A stretch of 64,000 nt of DNA from Micromonosporaceae bacterium KJ-029 (GTDB lineage Bacteria > Actinomycetota > Actinomycetes > Mycobacteriales > Micromonosporaceae), in the NCBI GenBank assembly GCA_005402585.1, contig BIFP01000021.1:1-64000 (forward strand). The letters run 5' to 3'. A model generated the notes under the pieces. That model worked only from the letters and a program-made list of their open reading frames with translations, had not been told where the DNA came from and searched no databases. Positions 26,735 to 60,219 of the stretch are shown here, one piece after another (position 1 is the stretch's first letter; every line of letters starts with the position of its first letter). The translations under genes and the position numbers were made by a program.

Positions 26735-26897
26735 GGGCGTGTCTCCTGGATCTCGTCGAGCCGAGACGAGGCCCAGGCGACGATTCGGCAAGGCGGCGGT
26801 TCGTCCGGATACCGGTGTTGTATCCGGACGAACCACCAACGCCGCCGGGCGCCGTCTGGGCCCGTCGCAGGCCGGCGAAGATCCGGGAGACACGCCC
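26735..26897. repeat. structured ~163-bp palindromic element, copy 1
   Basis: Ends GGGCGTGTCTCC-T-GGATC and its complement GATCCGGGAGACACGCCC (18-bp arms, one mismatch). The centre has a perfect 15-bp hairpin (26798-26834, loop CGGTGTT). The interior matches the copy at 41921-42089, including GTCGAGCCGAG, CGGCAAGGCGG, CCGGTGT and GTCTGGGCCCG. It fills the space between the tadA stop and the stop of the convergent thioesterase gene. MITE, or structured RNA/terminator; no coding capacity is evident. Confidence 0.8.
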
Positions 26898-27359
26898 CTA
26901 GGCCGGGCCGGGACGGAGCAGGGCGGCGGCCACCTGCCGCGCGGTGTCGGTCCACGGGGCCGGGCGCAGGGTCGCCGGGTCGAACCGGACGATCGCGCGC
27001 CGACCCTCCGCGTACGCCGTGGTGCCGTCGAGTGAGTGGAACCGGAAGGCGTACTCGGCGCTGCTGGTGCCGAAGTGCTCCAGCCAGAAGTGGACCGCGA
27101 CCGGGCCGGTGCCGGTGATCGGCGCGCGGTAGGTGATGGTGAACTCGCGTACCGCGTGGAACACGTCGGGCGTGCTGGCCTGCCCGCCCTGGTACGACAC
27201 CCCGCGCTCGGACCAGTACGCGGTGAGGACCCGCTCCAGCAGCAACGCGTACCGGGCGTTGTGCAGGAGGCCGAGGGCGTCGAGGTCGTCGAAGTGCACC
27301 ATGGCGTGCTCGACGTGGCCGTACTCGACGGCGGGCTGTTCGGCGAGGGCGTGGCTCAT
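26898..27359 (-). CDS. hotdog-fold acyl-CoA thioesterase-like protein
   Basis: 153 residues, typical 4HBT length. HFDDLDALGLLHNARYALLLERV near the N-terminus holds the conserved Asp and Tyr of YbgC-like thioesterases, and FHAVREFTITYRAPI is the long central helix/strand region. Probably hydrolyses an acyl-CoA. ATG 27359 overlaps the TGA of the upstream TetR gene (ATGA), so the two are coupled. The last codon touches the structured repeat. Confidence 0.82.
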   Translation of the reverse strand: MSHALAEQPAVEYGHVEHAMVHFDDLDALGLLHNARYALLLERVLTAYWSERGVSYQGGQASTPDVFHAVREFTITYRAPITGTGPVAVHFWLEHFGTSSAEYAFRFHSLDGTTAYAEGRRAIVRFDPATLRPAPWTDTARQVAAALLRPGPA

Positions 27360-27994
27360 GACTGGCCTTCCGGTAGCAGGGTGAGGTCGGGGCACAAGGC
27401 CCGCAGGCGGCCCAGCACGCCGAGGCGGGCGTGCCGGTAGGTGGTCTCCGGGTCCAGCAGCCGGGAGCGCATCGCGGCGGCGATCCCACACGCGTCGATC
27501 TCGTACGCCAGCAGCGCGGCGTCCACGTCGGAGGGAAGCTCGCCGAGGTCGACCGCCTCCCGGACGAGCCGTTCCAGGAACGCGGTCCAGGCGGCGAAGA
27601 CCTCGGCGAGGCGGTCCCGGACCGCGCCCGGCCGGGCGTTGAACTCGAACTCCGTGGTGGCGAAGAAACATCCACCGGGCAGCACCTGGGCGGCGTAGAA
27701 GTCGATCCGGGCCTCGTGCAGCGCCCGGATCCGGCGTACCCCCCGGGGAGCGCGCAGGGCCGGGGCGATGATCCGTTCCTGCCACTGCGTAACGGCCCGG
27801 TCGATGGTGGCGAGCTGGAGGGCCTCCTTGGAGCGCCAGTGCGCGAAGAGGCCGGACTTGCTCACCCCGAGCGAGTCGGCGAGGTGCCCGAGGGAGAGTC
27901 CGTCGAGTCCGTTGGCGGAGGCCAGGCTGACGGCGGCGTCCAGCACGGCAGTGCGGGTGCGCTCACCCCGGGCGAGCCGGCCGTCGACGGTCAT
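27356..27994 (-). CDS. TetR family transcriptional regulator
   Basis: 212 residues. The N-terminal HTH (about 12-58: RTRTAVLDAAVSLASANGLDG, then SLGHLADSLGVSKSGLFAHW) is clearly TetR. The ligand domain follows, with FDYA-like FYAAQVLPGGCFFATTEFEF of the TetR_C_6 type. First gene of a two-gene unit with the thioesterase; likely autoregulated through the palindrome 24 bases upstream. Inducer unknown, perhaps an acyl compound. Confidence 0.9.
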   Translation of the reverse strand: MTVDGRLARGERTRTAVLDAAVSLASANGLDGLSLGHLADSLGVSKSGLFAHWRSKEALQLATIDRAVTQWQERIIAPALRAPRGVRRIRALHEARIDFYAAQVLPGGCFFATTEFEFNARPGAVRDRLAEVFAAWTAFLERLVREAVDLGELPSDVDAALLAYEIDACGIAAAMRSRLLDPETTYRHARLGVLGRLRALCPDLTLLPEGQS

Positions 27995-30287: not shown

Positions 30288-30521
30288 AGTTCGTTCCTCG
30301 TTTCCGGTTGCTTCCCTCCTCAAGGACTGGTCGGGCCGCCGGTTCGGTCACATCGCGCGGCAGACCCGTACCGCGAACCGGCCGCGCGTTCGCTCTCGGT
30401 CTCATTCGTGCTCCGGCGGCGGATTCAGCCCGTCCAGGTCGGCATGTGTGGCCGACCGGACATGGCTATCGATCGACATCTCCCTAGGATGTGGGGGCGT
30501 CCACGGGGAGCGGGGGTTGTG

Positions 30522-32180
30522 ATGCGACGGAGAGTTGCCGGGGTGTCCGTGCTGGCGGTGTTGGCCAGCCTGGCGGTGAGCGCCCCCGCGCAGGCGGCGG
30601 ACGAGTTCCGGACCATCACCCGGGACGGCCTCGTCATGCAGTATCACCGGGTGGCGAAGGCGGTCACTGCGGTGAAGGGGACGGGGACCACCCGTTCCGA
30701 CTTCGACGGCGACGGCGTCGACGACATCGCGGCCTCCGCCGAGACCCTCAACCACAGCCAACTGCCCTACTACCCGACCGGCGTGGTCGTCGTGCGCTAC
30801 TCGTCCGCGCCGCAGGTCGACTACTTCATCGGTGCCATGACGACGGACGTCGGCTCCAGCTTCGGCATCGCGCTGGTGGCCGGTGACTTCAACGGTGACG
30901 GCTACGACGACCTGGCGATCGGCGACGCGGACGAGGTCGACACCCGGAACAAGGCCCGCGGTGGCGGTGTCTGGGTCATCCCGGGCAGCCCCACTGGCCT
31001 GGTGGTCGACTCGACCAAGCACTTCAACCAGAGCTCGCCGGGTGTCCCTGGCGAGTCGGAGAACTACGACGCGTTCGGTGCGTCACTCGCGGCCGGTGAC
31101 ATCAACGGCGACGGCCGCGACGACCTCGCGATCGGTGCCTTCAAGGAGTCGATCGGCAGCGTGGCGGAGGCCGGCGCGGTCACCGTCCTCTACGGCGGAA
31201 CCGGTGGCCTCACCGGCACCGGCGCGCAGCAGCTGCACCAGAACCAGGCCGCCGTGCCCGGCACGGCGGAACGTCGCGACCACTTCGGGATGTCCCTCGC
31301 GATCGGGAAGGTCAACAACAACAAGTACGCCGACCTGGTCATCGGTGCGCCCCACGAGAACGACGGCCAGTCGATCTGGAACGGCACCGGCATGGTCACC
31401 CTGATGTGGGGCTCGGCGAGTGGGGTGAAGCTCAGCGGCGCCACCTCGGTCACTGGTGCGGGGGTGTACAAGGCGACCGGGCGCAGCGACACGATCGCCT
31501 GGTACCTGGGCACGTCGCTTGCGATCGGTGACGTGAACGGGGACGGGCTCGGCGAGGTGATCGCCGGTGCGCCAAACGCGCAGACCCCACACCTCGACGG
31601 TGGTCTGATCGCGGTCTTCACCGGGCGGACCGGTGGCCTGTCCGGCAGCGCGGTAAAGATCATCACGCAACGTACGACCGGTGTGCCAGGCTCCCCAGAG
31701 GACCTGGACCGGTTCGGCGCGACGCTCGCGGCCGGCGACGTGACCGGCGACGGCAGAGCGGACGTGCTGGTCGGTGCGTACACCGAGGCGATCGGCACGA
31801 AGCGCGAGGCGGGCATGATCGTGCTGCTCAAGGGCTCCTCGTCCGGGCTGACCGGCAGCGGTGCCCAGGGCTTCGACCAGGACCACCCGGTCGTCCCGGG
31901 CGGTGCGGAACGCGGGGACCGTTTCGGTGGCTCAGTGGCGCTGCTGAACCTCAACGGCACCGGTCCGCTGGACGCCGTCGTGGCGTCACCGGGCGAAGAG
32001 GTCGCCGGCGACCTGGCGGGATACTCCTCCGGGACGTTGTCCCGGTTCCACGGCTCCTCCGGCGGGCTCGTCCCGCAGTCCGCCTCCTGGAGCGGGCGCG
32101 CCCTGAACACCGACCGCCTTCAGCTCCTGGACTACGGCCACCAGATCGCCGGTCCGCAGAGCAGCGGCCCGTGGTACTGA
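30522..32180 (+). CDS. secreted FG-GAP (integrin-alpha-like) beta-propeller protein 1
   Basis: 552 residues. A signal peptide (VLAVLASLAVSAPAQA) is followed by seven FG-GAP repeats with Ca-binding-like DxDGDGxDD loops: DFDGDGVDD, DFNGDGYDD, DINGDGRDD, KVNNNKYAD, DVNGDGLGE, DVTGDGRAD, NLNGTGPLD. Seven repeats predict a closed seven-bladed propeller. Extracellular; ligand unknown. ATG 30522 (GTG 30519 directly before) follows a purine-rich GGGGAGCGGGGG. First of three tandem paralogues. It lacks the Cys-x-Cys pair that copies 2 and 3 have in the second blade (SSFG here). Confidence 0.88.
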   Translation: MRRRVAGVSVLAVLASLAVSAPAQAADEFRTITRDGLVMQYHRVAKAVTAVKGTGTTRSDFDGDGVDDIAASAETLNHSQLPYYPTGVVVVRYSSAPQVDYFIGAMTTDVGSSFGIALVAGDFNGDGYDDLAIGDADEVDTRNKARGGGVWVIPGSPTGLVVDSTKHFNQSSPGVPGESENYDAFGASLAAGDINGDGRDDLAIGAFKESIGSVAEAGAVTVLYGGTGGLTGTGAQQLHQNQAAVPGTAERRDHFGMSLAIGKVNNNKYADLVIGAPHENDGQSIWNGTGMVTLMWGSASGVKLSGATSVTGAGVYKATGRSDTIAWYLGTSLAIGDVNGDGLGEVIAGAPNAQTPHLDGGLIAVFTGRTGGLSGSAVKIITQRTTGVPGSPEDLDRFGATLAAGDVTGDGRADVLVGAYTEAIGTKREAGMIVLLKGSSSGLTGSGAQGFDQDHPVVPGGAERGDRFGGSVALLNLNGTGPLDAVVASPGEEVAGDLAGYSSGTLSRFHGSSGGLVPQSASWSGRALNTDRLQLLDYGHQIAGPQSSGPWY

Positions 32181-32340
32181 CCCAGGCGGCGGGCATGGCC
32201 GTGCGTTACTGTGAGTGATTGATCGCTGTCGCTGCGATTCCGTGCGATGGTTTTCCCATGCTGCCTGTCGAGGCCGGCCCACCCGGATCGCCGCGGCGGC
32301 TGACCAGCCGGTGGACGTCTACGGGGAGCGGGGGTTTCTG

Positions 32341-33996
32341 ATGCGACGGAAAGTCGCCAGCGTGTCCGTGCTGGCGGTGTTGGCCAGCCTGGCGGTGAGC
32401 GCCCCCGCGCGGGCGGCGGACGAGTTCCGGACCATCACCCGGGAGGGCGTGGTCCTGCAGTATCACCGGGTGGCGAAGGCGGTCACCCCGGTGAAGGGGA
32501 GCGGGCCGACCCGGTCCGACTTCGACGGGGACGGCGTCGACGACATCGCGGCCAACGGCGATCCCTCCTACTTCGACCCGTCGCGCCACCCGACCGGTGC
32601 GGTTGTGGTGCGCTACTCGTCCGCGCCGCACGTCGACTACTTTTCGGGTGTCCTTTCCCCCGACGGCGGCTGCAGCTGCTTCGGCATGGCGCTCGTGGCC
32701 GGCGACTTCAACGGGGACGGCTACGACGACCTGGCAATCGGTGACTCGGACGAGGTCGACCCGCGTAACAAGACCCACGCCGGCGGCGTCTGGGTCATTC
32801 CGGGCAGCCGTACCGGTCTGGTGGTCGACTCGGCGCAGCACTTCAACCAGAGCACGCCGGGAGTACCCGGTGAGGCGGAGGAACACGACAGGTTCGGCTC
32901 GGCGCTCGCGGCCGGCGACATCAACGGCGACGGCCGCGACGACCTGGCGATCGGGGCGTACGGCGAATCGATCGGGAAGATCGCGGAGGCCGGCGCGGTC
33001 ACCGTTCTTTACGGCGGGGTCGGTGGCCTGAAGGTCACCGGCGCGCAGCAGCTTCACCAGAACCAGGCCGCGGTGCCGGGCGCTGCGGAGCGCCGCGACC
33101 ACTTCGGCTGGACGCTCGCGATCGGGAAGGTCAACAACAACAAGTACGCGGACCTGGTCATCGCTGCTCCCCACGAGAACGACGGCCAGAGCTGGACCGG
33201 CAGCGGCATGGTGACCCTGATGTGGGGTTCGGCGGGCGGCGTGAAACTGAGCGGCGCAACCTCGGTAACCGGCGCGGCGGTGAAGAAGGCGATGGGCCAC
33301 CGCGACACGATCGCCTGGTACCTCGGTGAGGCGCTCGCGATAGGTGACGTGAACGGGGACGGGCTCGGTGAGGTGATCGCTGGCGCGCCCAGCGCCCAGA
33401 CCCCGCACATCTATGGTGGCCTGATCGCGGTCTTCACCGGCCGGACCGGGGGCCTGTCCGGCAGCGCCGTTAAGATCATCACGCAGCGTACGGCCGGTGT
33501 GCCGGGCTCGCCGGAGGCCGGGGACCGGTTCGGTGCGACGCTCGCGGTGGGTGACGTGACCGGCGACGGCCGGGCCGACGTGCTGGTCGGCGCGCCCGGC
33601 GAGGCGATCGGTACGAAGGCCGAGGCAGGCATGATCACTCTGCTCAAGGGTTCGTCCTCGGGGCTGACCGGCAGCGGTGCCCAGGGCTTCGACCAGGACC
33701 ACCCGGTCGTCCCGGGCGGCGCGGAGCGCGGCGACAAGTTCGGTGCCTCGGTGGCGCTGCTCAACCTCAACGGCACCGGTCCGCTGGACGCTGTGGTGGC
33801 GTCGACCGGCGAAGAGGTGTCCGGAGATCAGGCCGGTTACCCGTCCGGAACGTTGTCCCGTTTCCACGGTGCTTCCGGCGGGCTCGTCCCGCAGTCCGGC
33901 TCGTGGAGCGGCCTGTCACTGCGTACCGACCGGGTCTGGCCGCAGCGGTACGGCCTGCGCATCGCCGGCCCGCAGAGCGGCGGCCCGCTCTTCTGA
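32341..33996 (+). CDS. secreted FG-GAP beta-propeller protein 2
   Basis: 551 residues, same signal peptide and seven FG-GAP repeats as its neighbours. Differs by a CSCFG pair in blade 2. The 5' flank repeats the ACGGGGAGCGGGGGTT tract before copy 1, showing that the duplication included the ribosome site. Separated from copy 1 by 160 bases without a clear terminator. Confidence 0.88.
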   Translation: MRRKVASVSVLAVLASLAVSAPARAADEFRTITREGVVLQYHRVAKAVTPVKGSGPTRSDFDGDGVDDIAANGDPSYFDPSRHPTGAVVVRYSSAPHVDYFSGVLSPDGGCSCFGMALVAGDFNGDGYDDLAIGDSDEVDPRNKTHAGGVWVIPGSRTGLVVDSAQHFNQSTPGVPGEAEEHDRFGSALAAGDINGDGRDDLAIGAYGESIGKIAEAGAVTVLYGGVGGLKVTGAQQLHQNQAAVPGAAERRDHFGWTLAIGKVNNNKYADLVIAAPHENDGQSWTGSGMVTLMWGSAGGVKLSGATSVTGAAVKKAMGHRDTIAWYLGEALAIGDVNGDGLGEVIAGAPSAQTPHIYGGLIAVFTGRTGGLSGSAVKIITQRTAGVPGSPEAGDRFGATLAVGDVTGDGRADVLVGAPGEAIGTKAEAGMITLLKGSSSGLTGSGAQGFDQDHPVVPGGAERGDKFGASVALLNLNGTGPLDAVVASTGEEVSGDQAGYPSGTLSRFHGASGGLVPQSGSWSGLSLRTDRVWPQRYGLRIAGPQSGGPLF

Positions 33997-34046
33997 CCCG
34001 AGAATCTGATCTTGACATGGTTGGCGCTACAGAGAACGGGGAACGA

Positions 34047-35702
34047 GTGCGACGGAGAATTGCCGGGGTGTCCGTGCTGGCGGTTGTGGCCGGCATGGCG
34101 GTGAGTACGCCCGCGCGGGCGGCGGACGAGTTCCGGACGGTCACCCGGGACGGTGTGATCCTGCAGAATCACCGGGTGGCGAAGGCGGTCACCCCGGTGA
34201 AGGGGACCGGTCCGACCCGGTCCGACTTCGACGGTGACGGCATCGACGACATCGCGGCCAGCGCCGATCCCTTCGAGCACAGCTTCCCCCAGTCGACAGC
34301 CGGCGTGGTCGTCGTGCGCTACTCGTCGGCGCCGCAGGTCGACTATTACGCCACGGCCGTCCCATCCGTCGGCGGCTGCGGCTGCTTCGGCGAAACCCTC
34401 GCCGCAGGGGACTTCAACGGCGACGGCTACGACGATCTGGCAATCGGGGACATCGGCGAGTACGACGTGAGCGCGAAGGTGCATGCCGGTGGGGTGTGGG
34501 TGATTCCGGGCAGCAGCACCGGCCTGCGGGTCGACTCGGCGAAGCACTTCAACCAGAGCACGCCCGGCGTACCGGGTGCCTCGGAGAAGGAGGACTGGTT
34601 CGGGTCCGCGCTCGCGACTGGCGACATCAACGGCGACGGGCGCGACGACCTGGCGATCGGGGCGTACGGCGAGGCGATCGGAACCATCAAGGAGGCCGGC
34701 GCGGTCACCGTCCTGTACGGCAGTGTCGGTGGCCTGACCGCCACCGGCGCCCAGCAGTTGCACCAGAACCAGGCCGCGGTGCCCGGCGCGGCGGAACGCG
34801 GTGACCACTTCGGCTGGACCCTCGCGATCGGGAAGGTCAACAACAACAAGTACGCCGACCTGGTCATCGGCGCACCGCAGGAAAACGAGAGCACCACTTC
34901 CAGGGGCAGCGGAATGATCACGCTGATGTGGGGCTCGGCGAGCGGCGTGAAGCTCAGCGGGGCCACCTCGGTCACCGGGGCAGCGCTGCGCAAGGCGACC
35001 GGGCGTAGCGACAGCTACGTCTGGCAGCTTGGCATGGCGCTCGCGGTCGGCGACGTGAACGGCGACGGGCTGGGCGAGGTGATCGCCGGTGCGCCGTTCG
35101 CGCAGAGCCCGAAGGGCAACGAGGGCATGGTCGCGGTCCTCACCGGTCGGACCGGCGGCCTGTCGAGCAGCGCCGTGAAGCTCTTCAGCCAGCGTACGGC
35201 CGGGGTTCCGGGGTCACCGGAGGCCGGTGACCTGTTCGGTGCGACGCTCGCCGTTGGCGATGTGACCGGCGACGGCCGGGCCGACGTGCTGGTGGGTGCG
35301 CCCGGCGAGGCGATCGGCACCAGGGCCGAGGCGGGCATGGTCGCCCTGCTCAAGGGTTCTGCCGCCGGGCTGACCGGCAGCGGTGCCCAGGGCTTCGACC
35401 AGAACCACCCGATCGTCCCGGGCGGCGCAGAGCGGGGCGACCGATTCGGTGGCTCGGTCGCGATCCTCAACCTCAACGGGACCGGTCCGCTGGACGCGGT
35501 CGTGGCGTCGCCCGGCGAAGAGGTGGCCGGCGATCAGGCTGGGCTCGGATCCGGCTCGGTTGCCCTGTTCCACGGTGCTTCCGGTGGGCTCGTCCCGCTG
35601 TCCACCTCATGGAGTGGCCTGAGCGTGCGTACCGACCTCGTCTGGCCCAAGTGGTACGGCCGCCGCCTCGCCACCCCCCAAACCGGCGGCGTCTACTTCT
35701 GA
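34047..35702 (+). CDS. secreted FG-GAP beta-propeller protein 3
   Basis: 551 residues, signal peptide ending in ARA and seven FG-GAP repeats (NLNGTGPLD in the last). CGCFG pair in blade 2 as in copy 2. Only 50 bases follow copy 2, so they are probably cotranscribed. GTG 34047 with GGGGAAC before it; an in-frame ATG at 34017 would add 10 residues. The strong terminator at 35727 closes the cluster. Confidence 0.87.
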   Translation: MRRRIAGVSVLAVVAGMAVSTPARAADEFRTVTRDGVILQNHRVAKAVTPVKGTGPTRSDFDGDGIDDIAASADPFEHSFPQSTAGVVVVRYSSAPQVDYYATAVPSVGGCGCFGETLAAGDFNGDGYDDLAIGDIGEYDVSAKVHAGGVWVIPGSSTGLRVDSAKHFNQSTPGVPGASEKEDWFGSALATGDINGDGRDDLAIGAYGEAIGTIKEAGAVTVLYGSVGGLTATGAQQLHQNQAAVPGAAERGDHFGWTLAIGKVNNNKYADLVIGAPQENESTTSRGSGMITLMWGSASGVKLSGATSVTGAALRKATGRSDSYVWQLGMALAVGDVNGDGLGEVIAGAPFAQSPKGNEGMVAVLTGRTGGLSSSAVKLFSQRTAGVPGSPEAGDLFGATLAVGDVTGDGRADVLVGAPGEAIGTRAEAGMVALLKGSAAGLTGSGAQGFDQNHPIVPGGAERGDRFGGSVAILNLNGTGPLDAVVASPGEEVAGDQAGLGSGSVALFHGASGGLVPLSTSWSGLSVRTDLVWPKWYGRRLATPQTGGVYF

Positions 35703-36912: not shown

Positions 36913-36916
36913 CCCG

Positions 36917-36949
36917 CGTCCACAGCCTGTGGATAGAACATGTGTACGA
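36917..36949 (-). promoter_or_regulatory. 33-bp conserved motif, copy 1
   Basis: Read on the minus strand it begins TCGTACACATGTTC and ends CTATCCACAGGCTGTGGACG. It contains the inverted repeat TCCACAG-G-CTGTGGA and a sequence close to actinobacterial SOS boxes (consensus around CGAACnnnnGTTCG). Copy 2 at 60120-60152 differs at one base of 33. Directly upstream of the gene at 36912. Confidence 0.65.
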
Positions 36950-36953
36950 CGGG

Positions 36954-37157
36954 TCAGCGCTTGTCGGCCAGCCCGCCGACGAACGCTCGCCAGGCGACGG
37001 GGGTGAAGGCCAGCGCCGGGCCGGTCGGGTCCTTCGAGTCGCGTACGCCGACCACGCCGGGCAGGTTGTCGGCGACCTCGACGCAGTCGCCGCCATTGCC
37101 GCTGCTGCTCTTGCGCCACCGGGCGCCGGTTGGCGTTATGACTCCGGTCAGTTCCAT
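36954..37157 (-). CDS. DUF397 domain protein
   Basis: 67 residues with the DUF397 signature W-R-KSS-S-GNGGDCVEVA and DSKDPTGPALAFTPVAWRAFV. Such proteins are partners of XRE/DUF5753 regulators and are encoded just after them. Here the partner upstream is broken. ATG 37157 overlaps the fragment's stop in another frame. Confidence 0.88.
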   Translation of the reverse strand: MELTGVITPTGARWRKSSSGNGGDCVEVADNLPGVVGVRDSKDPTGPALAFTPVAWRAFVGGLADKR

Positions 37158-38935: not shown

Positions 38936-38981
38936 TGTCTCCGGCGCCCGACGCGCCCACGCCCACCCGCCAGGCTCGGGT

Positions 38982-39036
38982 GTTAACAAGGGGCCCCTCC
39001 TCTACCGGAGGCGTTAATAAGGTGCCCTTCCTTGCA
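38982..39036 (+). repeat. GTTAA/GGGGCCC palindromic repeat, copy 1
   Basis: GTTAACAAGGGGCCCCTCC ... GCGTTAATAAGGTGCCCTTCC with TTGCA at the end: two half-sites of the same motif in tandem, each with its own palindromic GGGGCCCC core. Lies between the SRP RNA and dnaX. The family recurs at 49634, 52389 and 52514. Confidence 0.75.
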
Positions 39037-39111
39037 CCTCCACCAGCGGGGTGGGTGGTCAGGCGGGGCGAGGCGGCGGAGAATGGCGCGGTCGAGAGGA
39101 GGCGGGACGCC

Positions 39112-41916
39112 GTGGCACTGGCGCTCTACCGCAAATACCGGCCGCGTACCTTCGCCGAGGTCATCGGGCAGGAGCACGTCACCGAGCCGCTGTCGCAGGC
39201 GCTGCGCAGCGGGCGGCTCAACCACGCGTACCTCTTCTCCGGCCCGCGCGGCTGCGGCAAGACCTCCAGCGCCCGCATCCTGGCCCGCTCGCTCAACTGC
39301 GAGCACGGCCCGACCCCGGAGCCCTGCGGCACCTGCGCCTCCTGCCGTTCGCTGACCAGCGACGGGGCCGGCTCGATCGACGTCATCGAGATCGACGCGG
39401 CCAGCCACGGCGGTGTGGACGACGCCCGTGAGTTGCGGGAGAAGGCGTTCTTCGCCCCGGCCAACAGCCGCTTCAAGATCTACGTCATCGACGAGGCGCA
39501 CATGGTCTCGTCGGCCGGCTTCAACGCCCTGCTCAAGCTGGTCGAGGAGCCCCCGGAGTACGTCAAGTTCATCTTCGCCACCACCGAGCCGGAGAAGGTC
39601 CTCGGCACGATCAAGTCGCGGACCCACCACTACCCGTTCCGGCTGATCCCGCCGAAGGTGCTCCGGCCGTACCTTGAGCAGCTCTGCGAGGCCGAGGGGG
39701 TCCAGGTCGAGCCGGCGGTGTTCCCCCTCGTCGTGCGTGCCGGTGGCGGCAGCGCCCGGGACAGCCTCTCCGTACTCGACCAGCTCATCGCCGGTGCCGG
39801 CCCCGACGGCGTCAGCTACGCCCGGGCCGCCGCGCTGCTCGGCGTCACCGACTCGGCGTTGATCGACGAGATGTGCGACGCGCTCGCCGCCGGGGACGGT
39901 GCTGCCGCCTACGCCACCGTCGACCGGGTCGCCGAGGCCGGGCACGACCCCCGGCGGTTCGCCTCCGACCTGCTGGAACGCCTGCGTGATTTGATCGTGC
40001 TCCAGCAGGTGCCGGACGCCGCGACCAAGGGCCTCATCGACGGGCCGGACGACCAGATCGAGCGGATGGCCGCCCAGGCCCAGCGGCTTGGTCCGGGCAC
40101 CCTGTCCCGCTGTGCCGACATCGTGCACGACGGCCTGGTGGAGATGCGCGGCACCACCGCCCCCCGGCTGCTGCTGGAGCTGATCTGCGCCCGGATGCTG
40201 CTGCCCGGCGTCGACGACGCCGCCGGCGGTCTGCTTCAGCGCCTCGAACGCATGGAGCGCCGGCTCACCCTCGCCGGCACCGACGCGCCGCCGGCCGCCG
40301 CCGACTCCGCACAAGCCTCCGCCCCCGCCACGGTACGCACCCAGCCTCCCGCCGCGCCCGCGGCTGGCGCCGCGACTCCGGGCCCGACCGCCGGCGAGCC
40401 GGCGGCTCCCGGTGCCCGGTCCGGGGTGGCCGCCGCACGCGCCGCCGCTGCCAGTGCCGGTGCCCGAGGAGCCGCTGGCGGTAACGCCGGTGCCCTGGGG
40501 ACGGCCGCCGGAGCCCCCGGAGTGGCTGCCGGCGATGCTGGTGCTCAGGGACCGGCTGTCCCGAATGGTGGCCCGGGAGTGGTCGCCGCGACCGGTGGTG
40601 GCCCGGGAACAGCCGGCGCGCCGGCAGCAGGCCCGACCGGGCCGCAGACTTCCCGCCGCCCTGTGCCCTCGTCGGCCGTCATGCCCGATCCGGCCACTCC
40701 CGAGCCGCCCAGGCCGGGCTCGGTGAAACCCGGCGCGCTCGATGCGGTCGCGGTGCGCCGGGTCTGGCCGGAGGTGGTCGGAAAGGTCAACCGGAGCAAC
40801 AAGAAGATCGCGGCGCTGATGCGCGACGCGGTCGTCCGCGACCTCGACGGTGACACGCTCGTGCTGACCGTGAAGTCGACCGTGCTGGCCCGGATGATGT
40901 CTGATCACGCCCAGGTGCTCACCGACGCGCTCTACGAGGAGTTGGGCGGGCGCTGGCAGATCCGGTGCGAGGTGGCTGGTGAACGCGGCGGGACGTCGCC
41001 CGGCAACTCCCGTGCCACGACCAGCCCGCCCCCTGCCGCCACGTCTGCTCCCACGTCCACCCATGGCTCCAGCGCCGCCGCTGTCCGCCCGACGCCTGCC
41101 GTCGCGCCGAGCGGCCCGGCCGCCGGAACTGGCGCAGCGGGACGGCCCGGCGGCGCCCCCAGCGGACCGTCCGGTGGCGCGGCGCCTGGTACCCCCGAGG
41201 ACGACGACGAGGGCTGGCCGGAACCGGCCCGGCCCGGCGGTGCCACCCCCGTCGCGGCAGGTGACGCGGACGACGGCTGGCCGGAGGCGGCCCGCCCGGG
41301 CGGCACGCCCGCGTCGTCCGACACCTCCCCGGCCGCTGGCGCCCCAGCCGCTGGAACGTCGGCCGCTCGCGGGTCTACTGCTGGCGCCTCGGCCCGCGGT
41401 GCCCCAGTTCCTGGTACTCCGGCCGCCGGCGGATCCGCTACCAGTGCCCCGGGTGCTCCGACAGTGGATCGGGTCGGTGCTCCGGGCGGCCCGGGCGCGG
41501 CCGTGCCGGCCGGGCCGAAGGCGTCCGTCCCGCCGCGCCAGACCCCGCCGGCCAACGGCAACGGCAGCACCGGTGGCGCGCGGGTGAGCAGCGCGATCGC
41601 GGCGGCTCGCGCGGCGGCGGCCGGCCGGGGTACGCGTACCGCCCAGGCGACCCGGCAGACCGCGGACGTCGAGTTTGCTGGCGAGCCGCCGTACGATCCG
41701 GACTTCGACGGCCCGGTGCGCGGCGGCGGGGGACGACCCGGCGGCGCCCAGACGGCGGCCACGGCGGCCTACGAGGGCTTCGACCCGGGCGACGAGCCGC
41801 TGGACGAGATCATCGACGAGAAGACCGCCCGCGAGTCGAGCGAGGAACAGGCCGTACGTCTACTCCGCGAAGCATTCGCCGCCACCGAGAAGATCAGCGA
41901 AGTAGACACCCGCTAG
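39112..41916 (+). CDS. dnaX: DNA polymerase III subunit gamma/tau
   Basis: 934 residues. RFC-like AAA+ ATPase (1-370): Walker A GPRGCGKTSS (about 44-53), the four-Cys zinc module (C-x8-C-x2-C-x2-C, about 63-79), Walker B VIDEAHMVS (about 125), sensor KSRTHHYPFR. Clamp-loader ATPase joining polymerase and DnaB. The rest is a tau-like segment (WPEVVGKVNRSNKKIAALMRDA, about 545-615) placed between two long Ala/Pro/Gly-rich linkers, making the protein longer than the ~650 of most relatives. GTG 39112 has GAGAGGAGG upstream; the upstream in-frame extension is not coding. Confidence 0.95.
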   Translation: MALALYRKYRPRTFAEVIGQEHVTEPLSQALRSGRLNHAYLFSGPRGCGKTSSARILARSLNCEHGPTPEPCGTCASCRSLTSDGAGSIDVIEIDAASHGGVDDARELREKAFFAPANSRFKIYVIDEAHMVSSAGFNALLKLVEEPPEYVKFIFATTEPEKVLGTIKSRTHHYPFRLIPPKVLRPYLEQLCEAEGVQVEPAVFPLVVRAGGGSARDSLSVLDQLIAGAGPDGVSYARAAALLGVTDSALIDEMCDALAAGDGAAAYATVDRVAEAGHDPRRFASDLLERLRDLIVLQQVPDAATKGLIDGPDDQIERMAAQAQRLGPGTLSRCADIVHDGLVEMRGTTAPRLLLELICARMLLPGVDDAAGGLLQRLERMERRLTLAGTDAPPAAADSAQASAPATVRTQPPAAPAAGAATPGPTAGEPAAPGARSGVAAARAAAASAGARGAAGGNAGALGTAAGAPGVAAGDAGAQGPAVPNGGPGVVAATGGGPGTAGAPAAGPTGPQTSRRPVPSSAVMPDPATPEPPRPGSVKPGALDAVAVRRVWPEVVGKVNRSNKKIAALMRDAVVRDLDGDTLVLTVKSTVLARMMSDHAQVLTDALYEELGGRWQIRCEVAGERGGTSPGNSRATTSPPPAATSAPTSTHGSSAAAVRPTPAVAPSGPAAGTGAAGRPGGAPSGPSGGAAPGTPEDDDEGWPEPARPGGATPVAAGDADDGWPEAARPGGTPASSDTSPAAGAPAAGTSAARGSTAGASARGAPVPGTPAAGGSATSAPGAPTVDRVGAPGGPGAAVPAGPKASVPPRQTPPANGNGSTGGARVSSAIAAARAAAAGRGTRTAQATRQTADVEFAGEPPYDPDFDGPVRGGGGRPGGAQTAATAAYEGFDPGDEPLDEIIDEKTARESSEEQAVRLLREAFAATEKISEVDTR

Positions 41917-41920
41917 GGCC

Positions 41921-42089
41921 CTAGGGCCTGTGTCGAAGTCCTCGGTCGAGCCGAGGCGGAGTCCAGGCGGCGGCCGGCAAGGCGGAGATTCGCGCGGATA
42001 CCGGTGTCGTATCCGGACGAATCTCCAACGCCGCCGGTCGTTGTCTGGGCCCGCCGCAGGCCGGCCAGGGACTTCGACACAGGCCCTAG
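41921..42089. repeat. structured ~169-bp palindromic element, copy 2
   Basis: Perfect 20-bp terminal inverted repeats (CTAGGGCCTGTGTCGAAGTC, 41921-41940 and 42070-42089). The inner hairpin 41984-42026 has 16 of 18 pairs and the same CGGTGT loop as copy 1. The interior matches copy 1, while stem arms differ in both strands at once. Starts 5 bases after the dnaX stop. No protein-coding capacity recognised. Confidence 0.82.
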
Positions 42090-42161: not shown

Positions 42162-42214
42162 GATCACGGATCGAGTGTTCCCGGCTTGATGTGGTGGCTA
42201 CTCGATCCGTGATC
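42162..42214. repeat. 15-bp inverted repeat between dnaX and ybaB
   Basis: GATCACGGATCGAGT and its exact complement ACTCGATCCGTGATC enclose a 23-nt loop. It may be a terminator for dnaX or a regulatory site for the ybaB-recR pair; there is no T-run. Nothing else is recognised in 42090-42334. Confidence 0.6.
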
Positions 42215-42334: not shown

Positions 42335-42667
42335 GTGCGGCCTGGTGGACAGCCGAACATGCAGCAGATGCTGAAGCAGGCGCAGAAGATGCAGCAGCAG
42401 ATCGCCAAGGCGCAGGCCGAGCTGGCCGAGGCCGAGGTGACCGGCACCGCCGGTGGTGGTCTGGTCACCGCGACCGTCTCCGGCGCCGGTGAGGTCAAGG
42501 GCATCAAGATCGACCCGAAGGTGGTCGACCCGGACGACGTGGAGACCCTGGAGGACCTGATCGTCGCCGCCCTGCACAACGCCGCCCAGGCGGCCCACGA
42601 GCTGACCGAGCAGAAGATGGGCCCGGTCGCGGGCGGGATGGGCGGCCTCGGCCTGCCCGGGTTCTGA
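42335..42667 (+). CDS. YbaB/EbfC family nucleoid-associated protein
   Basis: 110 residues. The coiled-coil N-terminus [22 protein letters not shown], then [27 protein letters not shown] is the family signature. Dimeric DNA-binding protein. GTG 42335 after GAGGGAG. Eight bases before recR; the dnaX-ybaB-recR order is conserved across bacteria. Confidence 0.94.
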
Positions 42668-52376: not shown

Positions 52377-52388
52377 CCGGGTGGGGGT

Positions 52389-52443
52389 GCAAGGAAGGGC
52401 CCCTTGTTAACGCATTCTGCATAGCAGGGGACCCCTGTTAACG
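52389..52443 (-). repeat. GTTAA/GGGGCCC palindromic repeat, copy 3
   Basis: On the minus strand: CGTTAACAGGGGTCCCC, TGCTATGCAGAATGCGTTAA and CAAGGGGCCCTTCCTTGCA. Lies 12 bases past the MFS stop, in opposite orientation to copy 4. Confidence 0.78.
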
Positions 52444-52513
52444 ACACATCCCCGCAATCCGGCGCCGACCCAGCGGGCGGCGCCGGATTGCCGCAACGAG
52501 CGCCCGGCGCGGT

Positions 52514-52566
52514 GAGAAGGGTTCCCTTCTATGCACCAGGCGTTAATAGGGGGCCCTTCCTTGCAC
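52514..52566 (+). repeat. GTTAA/GGGGCCC palindromic repeat, copy 4
   Basis: AGAAGGGTTCCCTTCTATGC, then GCGTTAATAGGGGGCCC and TTCCTTGCACC. It ends directly before the leuA stop codon. With copy 3 it forms an inverted pair around a 70-base spacer between convergent genes. Confidence 0.78.
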
Positions 52567-52567
52567 C

Positions 52568-54343
<1,776 letters not shown>

Positions 54344-60038: not shown

Positions 60039-60119
60039 GTCGTTCCAGGTCGGGGTACGTTCCGGCCGGTGCCGGGTCGCCGATCAAGCGTACTCACGCT
60101 GGTCGGAAGCGGTCTGGCT

Positions 60120-60152
60120 TCGTACACATGTGCTATCCACAGGCTGTGGACG
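60120..60152 (+). promoter_or_regulatory. 33-bp conserved motif, copy 2
   Basis: TCGTACACATGTGC then TATCCACAGGCTGTGGACG; 32 of 33 bases equal copy 1 (36917-36949, minus strand). Lies 67 bases upstream of the metallophosphoesterase gene in the same orientation relative to the gene as copy 1. It contains the perfect inverted repeat TCCACAG-G-CTGTGGA. Confidence 0.65.
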
Positions 60153-60219
60153 TGGCCTGTGGGCCGTGCGCGGAGGGCCGCGACGATAGCGTGGGATCTC
60201 CCGGTCGAGTGGAGGCCCG

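Follow-up and report, generated by a model that had tools for sequence, protein, structure and literature searches.

Does the self-complementarity of two short elements in this locus reflect a fold under selection, as in a structured RNA, or arms that are homogenised within each copy of a mobile element? The window, i.e. the whole stretch of 64,000 nucleotides that was analysed, contains both of the structured copies described in an earlier note, copy 1 at 26735-26897 and copy 2 at 41924-42086, each 163 bp long with the motif strand on the + strand; the 41921-42089 previously given for copy 2 comprise the element plus the flanking C and TA. Both are imperfect palindromes with a G+C content of 0.71, and the interior that they have in common, with the CGGTGT loop, is found as claimed, as are the paired changes of the outer arms and the inner stem. 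The end type is GGGCGTGTCTCC in copy 1 and GGGCCTGTGTCGAAGTC in copy 2.

The terminal inverted repeats of copy 1 (26735-26752, + strand, and 26880-26897, - strand) enclose three modules, all given on the + strand. Module M1 consists of GAGCCGAG at 26758-26765, which faces GTCGCAGGCC at 26864-26873, module M2 of GGCAAGGCGG at 26787-26796 (AA unpaired) and CAACGCCGCC at 26837-26846 (AAC unpaired), and module M3 is the hairpin loop CCGGTGTTG at 26812-26820. The same arrangement is found in copy 2, with terminal inverted repeats at 41924-41940 (+) and 42070-42086 (-), M1 at 41948-41955 and 42053-42062 (GCCGCAGGCC on the right side), M2 at 41976-41985 (GGCAAGGCGG) and 42026-42035 (CAACGCCGCC), and the M3 loop CCGGTGTCG at 42001-42009, again with all modules on the + strand.

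The CTAG tetranucleotide previously noticed near a stop codon at both copies is the insertion target. An exact TA duplication (41922-41923 and 42087-42088) brackets copy 2, which starts 7 bp past the stop of ORF 38980-41916, while the flanks of copy 1 are decayed, with CA on the left and CTA on the right, and this copy directly adjoins the convergent ORF 26898-27785 at its stop codon, which reads CTA on + and TAG on -.

Other repeats occur in the window. An inverted repeat, GATCACGGATCGAGT..ACTCGATCCGTGATC, lies at 42162-42214 between ORFs 38980-41916 and 42335-42667, which we take to be dnaX-like and ybaB-like, respectively; among the loci examined it is seen only in copies of the same place. 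Direct and inverted copies of another intergenic repeat family, AAGGGGCCCCT..GGCGTTAATA..GCCCTTCC, lie at 38942-39057 and 52380-52586. The region 30512-35423 contains a tandem array of three units, each about 1.7-1.8 kb long and with a weaker inner repeat; where compared, the units are 74-90% alike. A 49-nt inverted pair that is 84% alike (36914-36962 and 60107-60155) has CCACAGCCTGTGGATAG and CTATCCACAGGCTGTGGA on its two sides.

The window elements are MITEs, one of the two readings offered in the earlier note. They are short, have terminal inverted repeats and are devoid of a transposase gene (coding being judged by length and palindrome), and this reading is borne out by target duplications, many copies, absence of copy 1 from its site in relatives, and a partner IS for one subtype. 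A near-identical third copy, 98% identical to copy 1, lies just beyond the window (C21:64071-64233), and the copy at C50:140064-140226 shows 94% identity to copy 1. With copies 1 and 2 as queries, the own genome gives 41 and 42 rows, respectively (E<=0.001), among which partial copies and the opposite strands of the palindromes are also counted. When a covariance model built on the inner 124 positions is used, 51 rows are obtained at the same threshold, corresponding to 49 distinct places, as two rows are second strands. The length of the element is nearly fixed, mostly 160-166 bp.

Beyond the own genome, which is included in each of the following counts, the covariance model finds the element in 92 of 397 genomes and 32 of 85 genera of the order. 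In a phylum-wide sample it is found in 8 of 296 genomes, a count that still holds two doubtful ones (L301 in G462 and L302 in G316), whose matches are without terminal repeats and look like chance. An exact pattern of the three core motifs occurs in 16 of 250 genomes of the host's family, and the reversed pattern has no match in the same 250 genomes. Among the exact-pattern matches listed are Micromonospora, Verrucosispora, Plantactinospora, Rugosimonospora, Virgisporangium, Stackebrandtia, Actinomadura, Nocardioides, Amycolatopsis, Pseudonocardia, and Actinoallomurus; one Pseudomonas match (L201) was taken as chance and dropped before duplications and gene orientation were counted. Elements also occur in tandem, at 132534/132730/132926 and 2561169/2561365/2561588 in genome G004 and at 3523025/3523188, 163 bp apart, in genome G536. 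In plasmid and phage collections copy 2 has no match at E<=1e-5 by blastn, a search that distant relatives would escape.

Identical target duplications flank 68 of the 118 unique exact-motif elements (35 TA and 33 TNA), a figure affected by the bonus that the search for element ends gave to a duplication; they are absent in 49, and one element lies at a contig edge. Insertion at stop codons is frequent because TNA and CTAG contain TGA, TAA, and TAG. Filled and empty sites were compared for copy 1: in 15 of the 19 relatives read, the same convergent gene pair is present, 6-105 bp apart, without the element. The other four are unusable, as the gene matches are about 5.7 kb apart in two (L420, L421) and the left gene alone is confidently matched in the other two (L428, L429). 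In three relatives (L415, L419, L424), pieces resembling the AAGGGGCCCCT..GGCGTTAATA..GCCCTTCC family lie between the copy-1-site genes.

A full-length IS with the same ends, proposed earlier as a check, is found for end type C. It lies at C34:19085-20108, is 1024 bp long with ends GAGACTGTCGGGTAAC and a TAA duplication, and codes for a 300-aa transposase (NF033580, IS5_3, E 4.2e-64). This IS and the type C MITE share only the ~15 outermost bp, and the latter is therefore not a simple deletion derivative of the former; derivation of the interior from the partner IS, which not all definitions of MITEs demand, is thus not observed for type C. At C56 lies another IS5_3 element, with two overlapping reading frames and a right end, GGCCTGTCCTGTCGATCATGG, that resembles MITE ends in other genomes. 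For the two end types of the window copies, neither a search with the end pattern nor the 13 PF01609 loci examined gave a partner IS in the own genome. Target length is linked to subgroups of IS5, and the subtypes with a partner combine an IS5-family partner transposase with a TA or TNA target, as in IS5-family mobilisation. Type C IS ends directly adjoin a type E MITE, with a common TNA flank, at two places (L128, C34:18400-20700, and L131, C47:1-2500). A 115-bp derivative without much of the core occurs at two loci with TA duplications, and the core therefore seems dispensable in cis for movement. Copies of about 40 bp, with little beyond the two terminal repeats and TGA on both sides, are also found (L133, C66:9688-9727, and L134, C67:603645-603687).

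The ends of the element vary around a kept core. Among the 68 elements with identical duplications, nine end types can be distinguished by a lax rule, and, averaged over the 36 pairs of end types, identity amounts to 0.56 in the terminal parts and 0.77 in the interior. In the closest pairs, the interior is 0.90-0.92 identical and the ends 0.57-0.64, for example an inner identity of 0.92 with terminal repeats at 0.64. Within the own genome, families of 26 type E and 14 type C copies were compared (L394 of type E and L405 and L407 of type C were left unoriented). In three copies, L377 (C66:152679), L393 (C30:4965), and L372 (C56:60650), 129, 127, and 124 of the 133 middle positions match the family, so that their middles keep 93-97% of the centre, while only 6-8 of 13 positions match at each end. 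The left and right ends of these copies are changed to nearly the same new repeat, and the duplications are TAA, TAA, and TGA, respectively. Comparison of the copies shows that the ends have been exchanged while the core was kept. We infer that a new end is acquired by recombination on one side and that template switching in the hairpin then copies the new arm across to the other.

Template switching also bears on the question of selection. Compensatory changes can arise from this process alone, to which PMC8794818 also attributes asymmetric frequencies of base pairs in the stems of RNAs; this counts against reading the fold as selected. In two copies, L408 (C67:337420) and L409 (C66:45574), the hairpin tip is inverted relative to the arms, with loop AACACCGG, and such inversions are known to result when switching occurs from one repeat arm to the other (PMC8604942). 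Homogenisation of the arms, the second possibility raised in the earlier note, thus seems to be active, although alone it poorly explains the unpaired bases and the excess of G.T over A.C mismatches.

The fold itself is well marked. The inner 150 nt are far more stable than their shuffles, with z = -7.7 for copy 1 and -8.3 for copy 2 (0 of 200 shuffles each). RNAalifold on 27 representatives (28 minus L222) gives 52 pairs, of which 42 show compensated changes. In the consensus structure, which was derived from the same alignment, 87.2% of cells are paired, compared with 70.2% after shuffling and 35-45% after sliding. Changes on both sides are seen in 244 cells, where shuffles give 83.7 (0 of 500). 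An absence of further copies, or of covariation beyond chance, had been named beforehand as what would speak against the element; neither was the case. Covariation of the outer helix is trivial because the terminal repeats must match, an excuse that the inner helices do not have.

In the consensus, M1 is formed by GAGCGAGC facing GCCGCAGCC, M2 by GGC-AA-GGCGGA facing (TCC or GAC)-AAC-GCC-GCC, and M3 is the loop CCGGTGTTG. Where the right side of M2 has GAC instead of TCC, a possible tandem G.A may form with the GGA opposite. The invariance of M2 and M3 among the 27 representatives is built in, because these were found by the exact M2 and M3 pattern. The model found 43 rows that were not chosen by motif. 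In these, M2 is retained in 36 on the left side and likewise in 36 on the right (the left word is present in 39, but lies outside the module in L349, L357, and L365), and the exact M3 loop CCGGTGTTG is found in only 12; M2 is different in three rows, all from one genome. The AA and AAC bulges are retained even between genera with entirely different inner stems. Within the two own-genome families, motif sites show 8 single changes in 2086 site-copies versus 19 in 1752 for stem sites (p=0.011 pooled), with p=0.58 in the larger family and 0.013 in the smaller; these counts leave out the three end-switched type E copies and the two tip-inverted type C copies. Constraint within living copies is weak.

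These data can be set against the view that the element is an ordinary IS5-derived MITE with a functionless core, its arms being kept complementary by template switching and its core by common descent. The weak constraint within families would fit such an element, as would the two inverted tips and the core-deleted copies at two loci. Nevertheless, homogenisation should erase asymmetric bulges such as AA and AAC, which are kept across genera with different inner stems, and neither the G.T excess nor the presence of the element in 32 of 85 sampled genera is readily accommodated. We regard a functionless core as unlikely.

The G.T excess was read from each element aligned to its own reverse complement, which treats both strands alike. 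Stem mismatches in the 27 representatives comprise 163 G.T versus 49 A.C, with G.T in excess in 25 elements and A.C in one. In 11 distant matches chosen from 21 loci (L296-L316), there are 76 G.T versus 15 A.C, with G.T in excess in all 11; the model that found these rewards G.U, whereas the representatives were found otherwise. By depth, G.T and A.C amount to 26 versus 3 at the ends, 29 versus 38 in the M1 zone, and 75 versus 4 and 45 versus 8 inside, and columns dominated by A-T show 26 versus 5. Changes within the two own-genome families are balanced: C>T (5) and A>G (15) add up to 20, as do G>A (10) and T>C (10). A mutational bias of one strand is therefore an unlikely cause of the G.T excess, and a mutational origin was rejected on this balance. 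With G.T far above A.C, the fold of one strand is probably under selection. The earlier proposal of a selected fold is supported by the covariation, and RNA is its presumed product.

Instead of RNA, the working form of the selected strand could be single-stranded DNA, folded either at the fork during replication or in an intermediate of transposition. The G.T excess extends to the terminal repeats, as if the whole strand folded, and the motif strand lies against the replication fork in 97 of the 150 matches listed from 9 genomes (p 4e-4), the terminus being assumed opposite dnaA; without G004, which has tandem copies, this is the case for 67 of the 109 matches listed (p 0.02). Such a lean would favour DNA, but it places the motif strand on the leading-strand template, usually not the most exposed strand, and among the matches listed it is significant in only three of the nine genomes (30:11 in G004, 14:4 in G046, and 11:2 in G536). 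The core-deleted copies at two loci also argue against a need for folded DNA in transposition. We consider single-stranded DNA somewhat unlikely as the working form.

Gene neighbourhoods were examined in a sample of 163 elements with home-made ORF calls, of which 108 were counted, 22 overlap an ORF, 6 are without neighbours, and 27 are too near the end of the locus. The upstream gene lies on the motif strand in 65 of the 108 and the downstream gene in 46, and 25 of the 65 upstream motif-strand genes end within 2 nt of the nominal border of the element. An RNA element at the 3' end that acts on the neighbouring transcript, through its stability or as an RNase III site, would be consistent with this adjacency, and such roles have been proposed for ERIC and Correia elements, as sections of PMC2229807 and PMC10969869 state. 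The adjacency, however, is a consequence of the stop codons within the TNA/CTAG target, and there is little preference for one orientation; on these grounds a role in the host transcript was rejected, and we find this explanation quite improbable.

Taken together, we favour, with good confidence, a non-autonomous MITE that is mobilised in trans, switches its ends between IS5-family transposases, and has a core that folds as RNA or single-stranded DNA. Its terminal repeats would be recognised by IS5-family transposases, which would insert it at TA (CTAG) or TNA, often exactly at a stop codon. The outer ~12-20 bp would switch on both sides together, such that the same core could be carried by different IS5-type transposases. 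The strand with GGCAAGGCGG...CCGGTGTTG...CAACGCCGCC is predicted to form a single long hairpin, interrupted by non-helical modules, and to work single-stranded, which would be the reason for the conservation of the core. The core would most likely work as a structured RNA and less likely as folded single-stranded DNA. More tentatively, and with less than even confidence, we hypothesize that these elements form a class of mobile structured RNA, in which a protein-free, heritable folded core survives across the order by exchanging both ends among active IS5-type transposases.

The family is widespread in actinobacteria. Its conserved core and replaceable ends provide a natural series on how non-autonomous elements switch helpers, and also bear on the reason for which one strand of a hairpin core would be under selection. 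As a rule, MITEs are identified by the ends that they have in common with a parent IS, the core being of little meaning; to our knowledge, described MITEs are unlike the present ones, in which the core is conserved and the ends are variable.

A description of this element family was not found in searches of open-licence papers. No Rfam family matches either copy at the gathering score in a search of the whole window, and at E<=10 nothing credible is found for copy 1, the best being MIR1883 (E 0.0017, 29 bits versus 128 needed). Bacterial MITEs in general, as treated in parts of PMC10969869, are likewise short and non-coding, with terminal inverted repeats, target duplications, and hairpin-forming capacity, but are typically AT-rich, whereas the window copies are G+C-rich (0.71); the words actinobacteria and Streptomyces occur 0 times in that review. 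IS5-family IS (NF033580, PF13340 and PF01609) have ends matched by the terminal repeats of the type C MITE and share its TNA target; they differ in their transposase gene, the MITE having none and sharing only the ~15 outermost bp with the 1024-bp IS. A REP element, a palindrome of 20-40 bp with a GTAG or CGTC tag according to PMC3733652, was considered and rejected for an element of 163 bp with long terminal inverted repeats and TA/TNA duplications. ERIC, Correia/NEMIS, and the Yersinia palindromic sequence, according to portions of PMC2229807, are also about 100-200 bp long, most with terminal inverted repeats and terminal TA, and form long stem-loops in transcripts; these descriptions set them apart by their other hosts and mostly A+T-rich sequences. 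The Tn3-derived TIMEs, as presented in passages of PMC4133298, are likewise non-autonomous, share terminal repeats with transposons, and have predicted RNA structures and short conserved stretches in the core. They belong to the Tn3 family, however, and show the opposite pattern, with conserved terminal repeats and a less conserved core.
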